Assembly: GCA_014584465.1 (NCBI GenBank)
Contig: JACTMU010000083.1
Location: 1 to 64,000 of the forward strand
Reading direction: 5' to 3'
From: Pseudomonadota bacterium
GTDB taxonomy: Bacteria; Bdellovibrionota; Bdellovibrionia; Bdellovibrionales; JACTMU01
DNA: 64,000 bases
Made by a program: the position numbers and the translations under genes. Of the stretch, positions 14,516-20,675 are shown one piece after another (position 1 is the first letter of the stretch; every line of letters starts with the position of its first letter). The notes under the pieces were generated by a model, which worked only from the letters and a program-made list of their open reading frames with translations, searched no databases and had not been told where the DNA came from.

Positions 14516-14911
14516 GAGTATCTTTTCAAAACAACCGTAAGGGTGGTAGGTGAAGGTGAATGGACTCTATCTGTAGAGATACGTTCACTGGAGAGTTTTT
14601 GACCAGGGGTACGATTTGCCTCGACAGAGTGTCCAACTTGTAGACACCTCTTCGCAAATTGGAGCATCTCCACAAACAATTTTCGATCAATCTTTGAGGA
14701 ACTCCACAACGACGGCGGAAAGGTGTGGCCGCGATGCCCTCATTTTGGTTTGGGGGTCAAGGTAGACCATGGGGATCACTCAAATCTACGGCATTGATCT
14801 TGCTAAATCACTCACGAAGTTTATGGAGAGAAATGGAGAATCTTGGGGTTCCTTGGGGAACTGACCATGGATCTCTGAGCAGGATGTTTGCTACAAGAAA
14901 ATGAGGTTGAG
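14516..14911 (+). other. intergenic region with a nested stem-loop
   Basis: No convincing gene is visible. The clearest structure is at 14556-14588: an outer stem GTGAA/TTCAC encloses a perfect inner hairpin CTCTA-TCTG-TAGAG. It is not followed by T residues. The region presumably holds the promoter of the downstream envelope operon, but I could not pick a convincing -35/-10 pair. Confidence 0.5.
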
Positions 14912-16084
14912 ATGGCGATTCAAGTTTGCAGTGGATTGGTAAGATCTGGTTGGGGACGAGGGTTGATGGCTTGCGCGGTCCTTATTCTAAGTCTCATGGG
15001 AGATGATGCAAGAGGGGCGGGTGACTTTCAAATTGTAGAGGATGATCTTCATATTCAGATCTGGACCCCCATTGGGCGCTTGCGCGGGGAGCGGCAGAAG
15101 GGGGCCATGAAGATCTTGGTGAGTCTCATTGAATCCAAGCTGGAGGAGGTTCATCATAGTGGAAAGCTCCCGTCCGTCATTACACGGGAAACTCTACTTG
15201 CAGCTCGAAACAGTCAGGGTGTCTTTGATCAAGCCATCGAGATGCTGACGGGCAAGGACTCCTATGGCATGGGGATCTTAGAGAAATTCGCACTCTCTCC
15301 AGGAAATATGAGCAAAGGTGTCTCTCCCATTCCGCGTGCACTTATGGGTTTTATCTCTTTTGGAAAAAGATTCGGAGCTGGCAAATATCTTGGGGTTGCC
15401 ATGGACTTTGGTGTGATTGTGATGGGATATCATGTGACCTACATCCCAAAGTACAAGCTCTCTGAGGATTTGCGCAAGAGCCTCTTGCCGAGTGCGAAGC
15501 AGCTTGAAAATGGCAAAGATTTTGTTTCTTTAGGTCTGGAAGAGGGCCGTGAGGCCAATGCCACCGAAGAAGATGTGGAAAAGATTCTTGAGGCGGTGGA
15601 TGGGGATGAGATCCAAGAGGGTTGGAGAATGCGCTGGACGATCACGGGATGGTTGGGACCTCAAGTGGGAAAGGAGATCAAACCAACAAATGATTCTACC
15701 GGGAGCCCGGGTGTTACATTGTCGTTGGGTGCCATTTGGGGTGCTATGGTCCGACCGGAAGAGTTTCATGGGGTTGCATTGTCGCCCGCGGTGGCCTTTC
15801 CTGATCTCAAATTGTGGGGGCATCACAACCTTTACCTTCGAGTAGGTGCTCTTATGGACGACTCTCATAAGTTGGTTGGGCGCAACCGATTTGCGCTTCT
15901 TGGGGTTGAACCTGGGGACGGCAAAAAGTATGATCTTCGTTTTGATTTCAAGTTCATTCTTCCCGAATCGATTCTGGTCAAATATTTCAAAAAAGTTGTC
16001 ACACTCATTCCCGATGCGGAGACCGTGAGAGGCATGACCGGGACTTTGGCGATCGATCCTAATGGAAATCCACGCTATGAGTAG
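14912..16084 (+). CDS. exported protein of unknown function, first gene of the Cys-repeat operon
   Basis: I do not recognise this family. ATG at 14912 follows GAGG with good spacing and leads to a signal-like segment (MACAVLILSLMGDDARGA), so the ~390-residue product is probably periplasmic or outer-membrane associated. The N-terminal half is mostly helical and amphipathic. The C-terminal half (from about residue 240) looks beta-rich, with WTITGWLGPQVGKEI, VTLSLGAIWGAMVRPEEF and LYLRVGALMDD, then YDLRFDFKFILPE. This would fit strands of a small barrel or a lipid-binding fold. It overlaps the next gene by 8 bp and that gene overlaps the third, so all three are likely made together. Confidence 0.75.
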   Translation: MAIQVCSGLVRSGWGRGLMACAVLILSLMGDDARGAGDFQIVEDDLHIQIWTPIGRLRGERQKGAMKILVSLIESKLEEVHHSGKLPSVITRETLLAARNSQGVFDQAIEMLTGKDSYGMGILEKFALSPGNMSKGVSPIPRALMGFISFGKRFGAGKYLGVAMDFGVIVMGYHVTYIPKYKLSEDLRKSLLPSAKQLENGKDFVSLGLEEGREANATEEDVEKILEAVDGDEIQEGWRMRWTITGWLGPQVGKEIKPTNDSTGSPGVTLSLGAIWGAMVRPEEFHGVALSPAVAFPDLKLWGHHNLYLRVGALMDDSHKLVGRNRFALLGVEPGDGKKYDLRFDFKFILPESILVKYFKKVVTLIPDAETVRGMTGTLAIDPNGNPRYE

Positions 16085-17870
16085 CTGGACTCTTTGCTTT
16101 CTCCTCTCTCTTGGATCGCTTACAGGAGCGTGGGAGGTGGTGGTCTGGGCTTCGGAGGCCGAAAATCGAGAGAGTGTTCATGTTGAGAGTTCAAGAGACT
16201 CTGTGGTCAATCAGCTCTTTGTCTACAAGCGATCTCCCTTTTTGATTCGTCTCTTTCGAAACTATCAAAATCGATTTACCTTTTCTCTGTGTGAGGAGAC
16301 CGAGAATCCCTACAGCCTCAATGGGTGCCAAACAGCGCTTGGCAGGATTGAGGGCTACACCATTGAAGATCTGACTCAAATGACTCAACAGGAGGGTGGA
16401 CTGGTTCTCTCCCATCCAAAGGCAACCATTCACCTTAAGGCCTCAGATAAGGATGCGGATCTGATCTCTGTAATCTATGCACCCCCTACAGCAGTGGAGG
16501 GGGGTTCTGGAGATGGATCAGAAAACCAGACTTCCTCCGAGGATCGAGGTGCTGAGCTCAGCCGTTCTGAAATCAGCGAATATGGGCGTGGGAAAGTTGG
16601 GTTGATTCGATTTGATGAGATCCTCACAGGTGAGGTGTTGGAGGTGGTGAAGCAGGATTCCCGCATTCGACTTCGCATGTGCGGGGCCAATGGATGTGCG
16701 GAGGTTGGGAGTTCCTCGGGGTATCTTCAAGAAGAGATACTTCCTCCGAGAAAAGTCTATGCCCAAAAGGGATATGAGTTTCAAGATGGAAGTCGGCGGA
16801 CCATCTCGTTTTTTCGTGAGAGAAAAAAGAGTGTCCGAGTCTATTACTGCCAAGATGGAGACCAAGATTGTCAAGAGATCGGAGTGCAAGGTGGTTATAG
16901 AGAGAAGGACCTCTTTGAGCAAAGAGATTTTGGAACTCTTAAAGTGCACTCAAAGTACAGTCCACCGAAATTGATTCTCTTTAAGAGAAAAAAGGGTGCC
17001 GAGTCCGTGCAATATTGTGACGCCGGGGCCGTTCACCTTAGAAGATTTGTGATGCGAAAGTGTTTTGCAGTGGAGGATTCCGACCCTCAATTGATCAGCT
17101 CGATCCATCAAAGGCTTGAGCGTGAGAGACGGATTGATCTGCCGCTGGCAGGGTACCGTCTACGCTTTTTGAGATTTGAAAGGATTGAAGCCACACAGAG
17201 TGTAAGGGCCTCCATTCACACTTGTAAGAACATGGCGGATTTTATGGTGCGGAAGGGTTGTGAAGTCATCTACGAAAGTTCTTTGGTCAAACTGGGAGAT
17301 TTTAAGAAGATCAAGAAGATCGACTTGACCCCATCCAAAATGATCGACGAGTACATCAAAGTCGCCATTGTCGAGCAGACGGGTGTTGTGACCTACAAGA
17401 TTTGTCAGAGGTGGGATGAGACGGAGATCTGTGAGTTTCTGGGAAGTCCCAAAGGATATTTGCTCTCGACCATCTTAAATATTCCAAAGGAGGGTTGGAT
17501 CACTGCCGCTGCAAAGATGGGATTTTCGACGGCAGGGACTGGCCTTTTGACGTGGATGACTGTCAGATCAGTTGCGAAACGCTTTGTGAGGATAGCCCAA
17601 AAGGCCGCAGGTTGGTTTGGAACAGCCTACACTTTCGTGCTCCTTCCATTGACGGCGTGGTCCATTGGGGAGACAGTTTGGACGGGTTACAACAGCATTT
17701 CAACGGGTGTGGCAGCTTCATATCTTAAGCCTCCCAAGCACTTTGACGGCCAAGGTGTCAGGAAGTCTCTGACCATTATGGAGATGCAGGGGTATCTTCT
17801 AAAGGCACTCAACGTCCGAAAGGATTCTACAGGGAGCATCTACTACGTTTCTCAGGATGGGCCAAAGTGA
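16077..17870 (+). CDS. exported protein with six paired-cysteine repeats and C-terminal hydrophobic segments
   Basis: No known family recognised. Numbering from an upstream in-frame ATG (16062), cysteine pairs occur at 77/89, 207/212, 263/270, 319/334, 388/400 and 448/457. Each first Cys ends a beta-like run (FTFSLC, IRLRMC, VRVYYC, SVQYC, SIHTC, TYKIC). In at least four repeats the second Cys is followed by a hydrophobic-Gly stretch and a GY (IEGYTIEDL, SSGYLQEEIL, QGGYREKDL, PKGYLLSTIL). This suggests a small disulfide-bonded beta module used six times. An N-terminal signal (LCFLLSLGSLTGAW) and two hydrophobic segments near residues 480-500 and 515-540 suggest export and membrane anchoring. 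ATG at 16077 overlaps the previous stop. Confidence 0.8.
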   Translation: MSSWTLCFLLSLGSLTGAWEVVVWASEAENRESVHVESSRDSVVNQLFVYKRSPFLIRLFRNYQNRFTFSLCEETENPYSLNGCQTALGRIEGYTIEDLTQMTQQEGGLVLSHPKATIHLKASDKDADLISVIYAPPTAVEGGSGDGSENQTSSEDRGAELSRSEISEYGRGKVGLIRFDEILTGEVLEVVKQDSRIRLRMCGANGCAEVGSSSGYLQEEILPPRKVYAQKGYEFQDGSRRTISFFRERKKSVRVYYCQDGDQDCQEIGVQGGYREKDLFEQRDFGTLKVHSKYSPPKLILFKRKKGAESVQYCDAGAVHLRRFVMRKCFAVEDSDPQLISSIHQRLERERRIDLPLAGYRLRFLRFERIEATQSVRASIHTCKNMADFMVRKGCEVIYESSLVKLGDFKKIKKIDLTPSKMIDEYIKVAIVEQTGVVTYKICQRWDETEICEFLGSPKGYLLSTILNIPKEGWITAAAKMGFSTAGTGLLTWMTVRSVAKRFVRIAQKAAGWFGTAYTFVLLPLTAWSIGETVWTGYNSISTGVAASYLKPPKHFDGQGVRKSLTIMEMQGYLLKALNVRKDSTGSIYYVSQDGPK

Positions 17871-18715
17871 GATTTTTCTTCTCGTTTTTGATTCTAACTC
17901 TTTTTAGCTCACTTTCGAACTCAAAGGTGGTCGAAAATGCTCAATCGACAAGTCGTTACAGACTTTCAAAGGAGAGCTTTGATCGAAGCTGGTCGATTCG
18001 CCTGCACACTTCGCAGTTCTCCTATTTTGAACCCGATGTGATGTCGGAATCGGGACTGCTCTACGGTTTTGAGGTTCAATGGACCAAGGAACTTCTAAGT
18101 AGATCCGATCTCGCTCTTCAGATTGGCCTTGAATATCAGAGTGGAAGAATTCAATATGAGGGATCGCTGGTCTCCGTTGAAGATCCAAATGCTCAACCAA
18201 TACCTCATCAGACCCATGGAGATGATCTGATCACCGATCTTCGAGCTACTGTAGGAAGAGGTTTTTCAGTGGGGAATGGTCCCTATCGAGTAAAGCCCTA
18301 CGGTGGACTTGCCTACCGGTTTCTCAAAGATCTTCCTTACGGGACGGGGGCCTATCTGCGGGAGATCTCCTACATCTATCTTCCCATGGGGGTCGTGTTG
18401 GAGACCAAACTTCGGCGAGAGTGGCAATGGGGTGCCACCTTAGAATATGATCTCTTTTTGGGTGGAATGGCAAAGAGCTACATGTTTGGTACCGTGGAGA
18501 ATCATCAATCCTCCGGGAGTGGCTTTCAATTGAGCTTTGACTTGCGTCGAAAACTCTCCTTTGGACAACTTCTGATCTCTCCCTACTATCGCTTTTGGAA
18601 GGTGGAAGATTCAGAAAAAGATGTGGGGAGTGACCCTGAAGTAGGGGAGGTGGTTTTCACTGAACCCAAGAACCATTCGCAAATGACCGGAGTTCTGGTG
18701 GGGTTTGAACTCTAG
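17867..18715 (+). CDS. outer-membrane beta-barrel protein, last gene of the Cys-repeat operon
   Basis: The 282-residue product has a short signal peptide (FFFSFLILTLFSSLSNS). It then shows regularly spaced amphipathic strands such as SWSIRLHTSQFSYF, LYGFEVQWTKEL, LALQIGLEYQSG and VKPYGGLAYRF, ending in a strand TGVLVGFEL. Length and pattern fit an 8-12-stranded barrel. It starts with GTG overlapping the preceding TGA (GTGA). Together with the Cys-repeat protein and the first exported protein it probably forms one envelope assembly, with this as the outer-membrane part. That is inference from gene order. Confidence 0.8.
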   Translation: MRFFFSFLILTLFSSLSNSKVVENAQSTSRYRLSKESFDRSWSIRLHTSQFSYFEPDVMSESGLLYGFEVQWTKELLSRSDLALQIGLEYQSGRIQYEGSLVSVEDPNAQPIPHQTHGDDLITDLRATVGRGFSVGNGPYRVKPYGGLAYRFLKDLPYGTGAYLREISYIYLPMGVVLETKLRREWQWGATLEYDLFLGGMAKSYMFGTVENHQSSGSGFQLSFDLRRKLSFGQLLISPYYRFWKVEDSEKDVGSDPEVGEVVFTEPKNHSQMTGVLVGFEL

Positions 18716-18740: not shown

Positions 18741-18917
18741 ATCCAGGTGCAAACGCTGCTTTTGGTTCATGGTCGAAACGAATTCAAGTCAGACACTCTT
18801 TAGCCTAAGGAGAAAGAGACCGATATCTCTTCTATAAACTCTGCCTGTGGATGGTTTTGCAAGCTGCCGCTGCGACGGTCTGGATTTCAGCGGCAATGAG
18901 TCTTGTGGGGGGACTTT

Positions 18918-20675
18918 ATGATAGCTCGATGGACATTGGCAATGATTCTCGGCGGAATTCTTCTCACGCTTTTGGTTTATCAGAACTGCACTCCCGTTCG
19001 TCTCTCTCGCAACATTCCCAGTGAGAACAAAGATTTGGATGTTGAGTTTTGTGTCCAGCCCCCAACTTCGGAGGAGTTTTATCGGAAGGTTCTCTTTGTT
19101 GTGGACAAATCAGGTAGCAACCAAATGGGTGGAACGGGCAGTGATCCTGACTACCAAAGAAGAGCCGGGAGCATCGAGGCCTTCTTTGAGGAGATTTCAA
19201 ACATCGACAATCTCGATTTTTACAGGTGGGGCCTCATTACATTTGGTTTCGATCCAGTGCAGGCGAGAGCCTACACCAACGATGGGTCCGAACTCAATCC
19301 TCGTTTCGTAGGGGTGGATGAGATGAAGGGTGCGATTGCCAGGTTGTGGAACCGCGACAACAACCCAGCCGATGAGGACACCGGCTGCACTCCCTATGTT
19401 GAGGCATTGGAACTTGCGCGTACGGCGATTGCAAGAGATATGGAGTTAAATCCTGATCAAAATGTGATCTACAATGTCTTCTTTCTTTCTGATGGAAGAC
19501 CCTCGACACCGAACGCAGAAGAAAAGGGATGTGAAGAAGACTATGTTTACGACAGTCCCGATGATCGCTACCTAAGCGCCGTGAGGAATCTTGTAAATCA
19601 GAAGAAGGAGTCGGTTTTTCTTAGCACCTACTACTACTACAATGGTGGTGGTTATGATGGCCAAGCTGCGGATGGACTTCGCTACATGTCAGAAGCAGGT
19701 GGAGGCAAGTTCACAGACCTTGGAACGGCTCAAAGAATTGAGTTTGAAGAGGTCAAGGTGGGGCGCTACACCATGCCATGGAAGATCAGGAGATTTGTGA
19801 GCGTCAATTTGAATTCGGGATTTTGTGAGGATGGCACCATTGACAGCGATTCCGACGCCGATGGAATCTGCGATCGGGATGAAGAAGGTTACAATGATGA
19901 TTCCAAGATGCTCGAATTGATCAAGAAACGAGGTCTTGAAGGAAAACTCTTTGACCCGATTCAAAGAAACTCATTTTCAAAAAACTACTCGGATCTCTTT
20001 ACACTTCAGTTCTTCTTGAAAACCGACAGTGGCGAAACTTTGGACTGTACAAAGAGCAAGAGTGATCTTGATGGCGATCTTCTCAATGAGTGCGAGGAGT
20101 TTGTTTTATTTGACCAAAATGCAAACAGCCTGCCGGGCACGAACTGGTTTTCGGATGCGATCTTCGCAGATTCTCAAAATCCAGACTCGGACGGCGACGG
20201 CTTTATCGACGTGATGGAGTTTTTTACATTAGGTTATCGAAGCTCTTCGGTGGACTACAGCAACATTGATCGAACCCTTGACGGGACCGATGTGAGAATT
20301 GAGAACGTTCTCGCCAAACACATGAACCCTCGTGACAAATCTCACAAGTGGGGTGAAGACAACTATGATCCCTATCTTTTCGAAAGGGGCTTGAGTGATA
20401 GGTCGACCTACTGTTATAACTTTTCTCAGGAGCACTTGGCGATCTATCCCACTAAGGCAGTCACTTTGAACCAGGTCAGTGAGAATGAGAACCTTGTTCA
20501 CGGTGAGAACGAGAATGTGATACTCACCTACTACATTGCGGTGCCTGATGGGGATCAGCTCTCCAAAGGGGCCTACTTCTACACATTTGAAAAAGCCAAA
20601 TATGGTGACGACAACAAGAATCATCGAGTCGATGTTCGAAAACTCAATGAGTACATTGTGCCCGATTTTCGATAG
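18918..20675 (+). CDS. vWA-domain lipoprotein with calcium-binding Asp repeats, CglD-like architecture
   Basis: ATG at 18918 follows GGGGGG. A membrane signal ends in LLVYQNC (Cys24), an unusual lipobox with Tyr-Gln-Asn before the Cys; a similar motif ends the micro-lipoprotein at 27963-28043. The vWA domain begins LFVVDKSGSN (D63-x-S65-x-S67, the MIDAS metal site) and includes FFLSDGRPS. Further on are Asp-rich repeats of thrombospondin type-3/EF-hand style: DSDSDADGICDRDEEGYN, SDLDGDLLNECEE and DSDGDGFIDVMEF. A vWA lipoprotein with such repeats is the layout of Myxococcus CglD, required for gliding. Given the Glt/Agl cluster at 55422-64000, a role in surface adhesion or motility is a reasonable inference. 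Confidence 0.8.
   Translation: MIARWTLAMILGGILLTLLVYQNCTPVRLSRNIPSENKDLDVEFCVQPPTSEEFYRKVLFVVDKSGSNQMGGTGSDPDYQRRAGSIEAFFEEISNIDNLDFYRWGLITFGFDPVQARAYTNDGSELNPRFVGVDEMKGAIARLWNRDNNPADEDTGCTPYVEALELARTAIARDMELNPDQNVIYNVFFLSDGRPSTPNAEEKGCEEDYVYDSPDDRYLSAVRNLVNQKKESVFLSTYYYYNGGGYDGQAADGLRYMSEAGGGKFTDLGTAQRIEFEEVKVGRYTMPWKIRRFVSVNLNSGFCEDGTIDSDSDADGICDRDEEGYNDDSKMLELIKKRGLEGKLFDPIQRNSFSKNYSDLFTLQFFLKTDSGETLDCTKSKSDLDGDLLNECEEFVLFDQNANSLPGTNWFSDAIFADSQNPDSDGDGFIDVMEFFTLGYRSSSVDYSNIDRTLDGTDVRIENVLAKHMNPRDKSHKWGEDNYDPYLFERGLSDRSTYCYNFSQEHLAIYPTKAVTLNQVSENENLVHGENENVILTYYIAVPDGDQLSKGAYFYTFEKAKYGDDNKNHRVDVRKLNEYIVPDFR

Follow-up and report, generated by a model that had tools for sequence, protein, structure and literature searches.

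Modular exported binding proteins are a well-known kind of system. In bacterial envelope modules of the SH3b type, a small extracytoplasmic beta module with a GY- or GW-like end is repeated along the chain and may serve as a binding arm. Beta-propellers and propeller lectins, too, are built from repeated four-strand units. Here we describe a multi-module exported protein encoded in a stretch of 64,000 nucleotides (the window; positions 1 to 64,000 of contig JACTMU010000083.1, assembly GCA_014584465.1, Bdellovibrionota). Compared with SH3b-type modules, the module of this protein has a conserved pair of cysteines and a helix after the GY. The propellers resemble the window protein in their four-strand units of similar length and appeared among low-ranking Foldseek matches; however, the window protein differs from them in the helix between units, the uneven spacing of the units and the presence of single-unit relatives, and the matches of the confident structural model were all above E 1.

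Gene organization

The gene for the multi-module protein probably forms one operon with its two neighbours, because its ends overlap theirs: the start lies over the stop codon (16082–16084) of the upstream gene, and the stop over the GTG start (17867) of the downstream gene. The ATG at 16077 lies five codons downstream of the in-frame ATG at 16062, and both starts are possible. Only short open frames were found on the opposite strand across this region. The coordinates of the features are given in Table 1.

Table 1. Features of the multi-module gene and its neighbours (positions in the window; residues counted from the ATG at 16062)
Feature	Position	Strand	Evidence or remark
Upstream exported protein, 398 aa; probable operon partner	14888..16084	+	Overlaps start of multi-module gene
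Multi-module protein, CDS	16077..17870	+	597 aa from ATG 16077; 602 aa from in-frame ATG 16062
Predicted signal peptide, cleavage site approximate	16077..16154	+	Hydrophobic N-terminal stretch; relatives likewise
Module 1, residues 50-106, Cys 77/89	16209..16379	+	iE 3e-7 with profile of relatives, window excluded; 0/500 shuffles
Module 2, residues 178-228, Cys 207/212	16593..16745	+	iE 0.08 with narrower profile, 5e-4 with broader; 0/500 shuffles
Module 3, residues 232-287, Cys 263/270	16755..16922	+	iE 1e-5; 0/500 shuffles
Module-like segment 4 (candidate), residues 290-352, Cys 319/334	16929..17117	+	Score reached by 15/500 or 64/500 shuffles; no GY
Module-like segment 5 (candidate), residues 362-412, Cys 388/400	17145..17297	+	Score reached by 109/500 or 40/500 shuffles; no GY
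Module 6, residues 421-474, Cys 448/457	17322..17483	+	iE 1.6e-5, 3e-8 if continued through hairpin; 0/500 shuffles
Hydrophobic hairpin, residues ~478-496 and ~517-535, loop +5	17493..17666	+	Same element after module in nearly all relatives
C-terminal tail with SLTIMEMQGYLLKAL, aligned to relatives' VSIVEFSEYIEEKL	17750..17867	+	Profile match extends to residue 576
Downstream protein, 282 aa, likely outer-membrane beta-barrel; probable operon partner	17867..18715	+	Overlaps stop of multi-module gene

For the upstream exported protein, neither a family match nor, in 140 genomes of the order, a relative was found. The downstream barrel-like protein matched no Pfam family and has relatives in 20 of the 140 genomes, its own included, with differing neighbours. 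A conserved neighbour was sought beside these relatives in 14 genomes and none was found; the relatives stand alone, away from module genes. Beside one of them, a Cys-paired protein of 446 aa (L022:5999-7339) looked alike but gave no module match.

The product of 18903–20675 (+) is a likely lipoprotein, with a lipobox-like VYQNC near its start, a VWA-like domain, a MIDAS-like motif (DKSGS) and loops of the DxDxDG type; its match to Pfam VWA_2 (E 0.0035) was below the family cut-off. A MIDAS-family adhesin has been described as functioning in prey invasion by Bdellovibrio (PMC11003981).

Cysteine pairs and likeness among the six segments

The 602-aa frame contains 13 cysteines, at residues 12, 77, 89, 207, 212, 263, 270, 319, 334, 388, 400, 448 and 457. 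Cys 12 lies inside the signal peptide, and the remaining twelve form six close pairs, at precisely the residues named in the original prediction. That numbering holds from the ATG at 16062, whereas the start quoted with it, 16077, would give 72/84, 202/207 and so on. The two hydrophobic segments predicted to follow the modules are also present and correspond to the hairpin in Table 1. The spacing from first Cys to first Cys is uneven (130, 56, 56, 69 and 60), and a long polar linker separates modules 1 and 2.

The likeness among the six segments was assessed with 500 shuffles, in which the Cys positions were fixed and the residues were permuted within each piece. The summed pairwise score of 401 exceeded all 500 shuffles (311 ± 15, maximum 372), in agreement with the resemblance that had been predicted from the letters. 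The signal came mainly from pairs 2-3 and 2-6, followed by 3-4, 1-2 and 3-6, and the pairs 3-4 and 4-5 were slightly above the shuffles (p 0.006 and 0.046). With leave-one-out profiles, modules 2 and 3 were weakly recovered (E 0.01–0.02), modules 1 and 6 were placed correctly at non-significant scores, and segments 4 and 5 were missed altogether. Judged from the window protein alone, homology of the modules is only suggested. In the consensus of modules 1, 2, 3 and 6, two strands precede C-x(4-11)-C, which is followed by xxΦG, GY and a helix start; the Gly-Tyr followed by a helix start, which had been proposed as a frequent feature of the modules, is found in these four and is lacking in segments 4 and 5.

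Single-module relatives in the Bdellovibrionota

Whole-protein searches gave no real relative in the family, the order (141 genomes), the class (144), the phylum (369) or the GTDB contigs. The matches at E about 0.003–0.009 came from a QueA gene (L002), an Arg/Cys-rich protein (L037) and, at L036 and L038, frames that contain stops or lack a module. With a profile of the six modules, the search of 359 genomes of the phylum returned noise and six intact proteins (L040, L041, L055, L044, L053 and L050) of about 180–250 aa, each with one module. All six share one layout: a signal-peptide-like start, the module close to the N-terminus of the mature protein, then the hydrophobic hairpin and, last, a C-terminal tail. 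Since the hairpin and the signal peptide were outside the query and recur as in the window protein, the module match is not an artefact of the Cys pattern.

A profile of module, hairpin and tail identified further members across the phylum; L079, L081 and L083–L085, which were also returned, were set aside as chance matches to the hairpin or tail. By the module profile, 10 of 143 genomes of the window's class, its own included, contain members, as do 11 of the 129 genomes in the family to which Bacteriovorax sp. MedPE-SWde belongs. Among the named records with a member are Bacteriovorax sp. DB6_IX, Bacteriovorax sp. MedPE-SWde, a Halobacteriovoraceae MAG and a Bdellovibrionales MAG. The relatives match each other independently of the window, with single-sequence E-values down to 1e-82. 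The usual member of the family in the Bdellovibrionota is an exported protein, mostly of 180–250 aa, in which a single module precedes a hydrophobic hairpin rich in Gly, and the tail is helical. A second multi-module member was not seen among roughly 35 relatives, and the window protein looks like a lineage-specific expansion of the single-module form.

The member from Bacteriovorax sp. MedPE-SWde (L092:5001-5618, MPCU01000003.1) carries, like the window protein, a signal peptide, a module with the Cys pair, xxΦG and GY, a hairpin and a C-terminal helix. Unlike the window protein, with its four to six modules, the single-module relatives have one module, are about 200 aa long and often occur as adjacent gene pairs. 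Such adjacent pairs of divergent paralogues were found at eight loci (L091, L092, L093, L094, L102, L108, L110 and L113). The second genes at L091:5619-6188, L092:5621-6187, L093:270-824, L094:5591-6184, L108:6241-6882, L110:6913-7575 and L113:5468-6052 are more divergent, often without GY, and appear to form a two-gene unit with the single-module gene beside them. Long additional N-terminal regions precede the single module in L122 (a 344-aa frame) and in L111:6635-7606. At another locus, the product of L098:2376-2927, which adjoins a family member, has N-terminal strands, a hydrophobic hairpin and a tail that are alike by eye, and it contains zero Cys; if it is a relative, the joint loss of both Cys would be as expected for a disulfide.

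The hairpins of the relatives are rich in Gly and Ala. Their loops are positive in 12 of 31 cases and negative in 3; many are short and uncharged, and so lend weak support to the proposed hairpin topology.

Module-by-module evidence with profiles built without the window

When a profile was built from 22 relatives with the window left out, it matched the window protein at E=2e-23, a value that, like the other E-values against the relatives, is somewhat optimistic because the relatives were found with profiles containing the window modules; the best of 216 background proteins reached 0.0064. Against an artefact of this selection bias stand the hairpin common to the window protein and its relatives and the outcome of the shuffle controls. 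Modules 1, 2, 3 and 6 fall within the match, which for module 6 spans residues 425–576, through the hairpin into the tail. Module 6 occupies the position of the lone module of the relatives. These profile matches place modules 1, 2, 3 and 6 and the hairpin-tail region in the family.

Each module was compared with narrower and broader profiles of the single-module relatives, using 500 Cys-fixed shuffles per module (Table 1; for segments 4 and 5 the count with the narrower profile is given first). Because the shuffles never reached the scores of modules 1, 2, 3 and 6 but did reach those of segments 4 and 5, four modules are taken as established and two are left as candidates. On the sequence evidence, modules 1, 2, 3 and 6 are established as one homologous domain, and the position and Cys pair of segments 4 and 5 suggest that they are further copies. 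The family signature, C-x(n)-C-xxΦG-x3-GY, is present in the former four and absent from the latter two. Of the six copies originally proposed, four were thus borne out, and segments 4 and 5 did not reach significance.

Every row of a 25-row alignment of modules has both Cys and the G of xxΦG, and nearly every row has the Y. Between the two Cys lie as few as 4 residues in module 2 and as many as about 20 in L062 and L080. We infer that a stretch of such variable length would fit a metal site less well than a disulfide joining strand ends.

Predicted structure and comparison with known families

The full-length AlphaFold2 model of the window protein, made from the single sequence, was poor (pLDDT 39), and the beta-propeller matches that Foldseek gave for this model were disregarded on that account. 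AlphaFold2 was also applied to the L092 protein, with a 12-row alignment that included the window modules and left out most relatives. The module was modelled at pLDDT 86–94 as four strands (residues 2–6, 15–21, 24–30 and 38–41) plus a helix; strand 3 ends at Cys 30, and strand 4 begins at Cys 38. After the GY, a long helix (49–85) leads into the second hydrophobic helix (90–109), and the tail contains a helix at 143–162. The hairpin was modelled at low confidence (pLDDT 47–67).

In a Foldseek comparison of the confident L092 module with the PDB, nothing was below E 1 among the 50 matches listed, and none of these was named as an SH3 domain. An SH3b identity, which was first guessed from the GY...L ending, found no SH3 match in Pfam or NCBIfam. 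The L092 model gave no match below 0.3 against viral structures.

Searches of Pfam, NCBIfam, PHROGs, PADLOC and the PDB sequences gave no convincing match, only isolated weak ones in single members, which is consistent with the original prediction that no known domain could be recognized. For known anti-phage defence or phage families, the PADLOC and PHROGs profiles likewise gave weak, isolated matches in single members only, and nothing was found in the phage, plasmid and viral-contig searches. A narrow literature search found no paper on such a module family in the Bdellovibrionota. As judged from these searches, the family is undescribed in the curated libraries tested.

Discussion

Taken together, we propose, giving it an even chance, that the window encodes a multi-module envelope-anchored protein, in which at least four disulfide-stapled modules (45–55 residues each, four strands plus a helix start), with two degenerate candidates besides, are followed by a hairpin and a helical tail. 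It would represent the single-module family form with N-terminal modules added, and would act as a multivalent periplasmic binding arm held by an inner-membrane hairpin. The signal peptide would send the modules into the oxidising periplasm, where each Cys pair would form a putative disulfide that closes the loop joining strands 3 and 4. The hairpin, with its +5 loop in the cytoplasm, would anchor the protein in the inner membrane, with the modules as a multivalent arm that may bind a partner in the periplasm. The binding role is proposed by resemblance to binding modules: the beta module is small and putatively stapled, has multiplied in one lineage and varies elsewhere. The outer-membrane protein from the overlapping downstream gene is a candidate partner; counting against it, the relatives of this barrel gene elsewhere are not beside module genes.

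The protein may contain four copies only, modules 1, 2, 3 and 6, with Cys pairs 4 and 5 located in an unrelated stretch (about residues 290–420); this is compatible with the other readings, and we consider it quite possible, though somewhat short of an even chance. In segments 4 and 5 the xxΦG..GY signature is lacking and the scores are not clearly above the shuffles, but their position, their spacing and the strand before the first Cys fit the series, the segment pairs 3-4 and 4-5 score slightly above the shuffles, and family-like modules without GY occur in the paired genes. A further alternative, that the Cys of an orphan protein are paired by chance and share no fold, drew on the whole-protein searches, which gave no relatives in up to 369 genomes of the phylum or in GTDB contigs. 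It is refuted for four of the six by the match to the window-free family profile and by the shuffles of the four modules, and we regard it as hardly credible.

Two further readings concern what the protein does. Adjacent divergent pairs of module genes at eight loci keep alive the idea that single-module relatives assemble next to one another, homo- or heteromerically, via their modules and hairpins to form a membrane complex, and that the window protein joins the modules of several subunits in one chain. The Gly/Ala-rich hairpins, as in packed helix bundles, would agree with such an assembly, but only a single hairpin is left in the window protein, and its modules are unevenly spaced, with the long polar linker between modules 1 and 2; we consider this unlikely. 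We view with the same reserve the broader form of this idea, in which the extracytoplasmic domain family is new, its one-module members form a membrane complex in pairs or as oligomers, and the window protein is a natural concatemer of several subunits' modules. Slightly less probable is a membrane-active effector, exported against other bacteria (prey or competitors), whose modules bind the target envelope and whose hairpin inserts into the target membrane. The members are indeed exported, hairpin-bearing, patchy and diverse small proteins of a predator-rich phylum, but no toxin family and no secretion signal beyond an ordinary signal peptide were found, the best toxin-type match was to a phrog 'hemolysin' (E 0.02) in one member, and the positive loop fits a protein that stays in the inner membrane of the cell that makes it.

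Whichever function applies, including the envelope-anchored binding arm that we favour, the combination of C-x(n)-C-xxΦG-x3-GY with the hairpin now defines by sequence a family missed by the curated libraries tested. This definition rests on the one-module, membrane-hairpin form, which is found beyond the window protein. As a small module that is easy to express and was modelled with confidence in a relative, it lends itself to direct tests of its fold, disulfide and ligand. The phylum in which the family occurs contains bacterial predators, and a family that is patchy and strongly diverged, often arranged in gene pairs, and whose module was multiplied in one lineage, suggests the binding of something variable.
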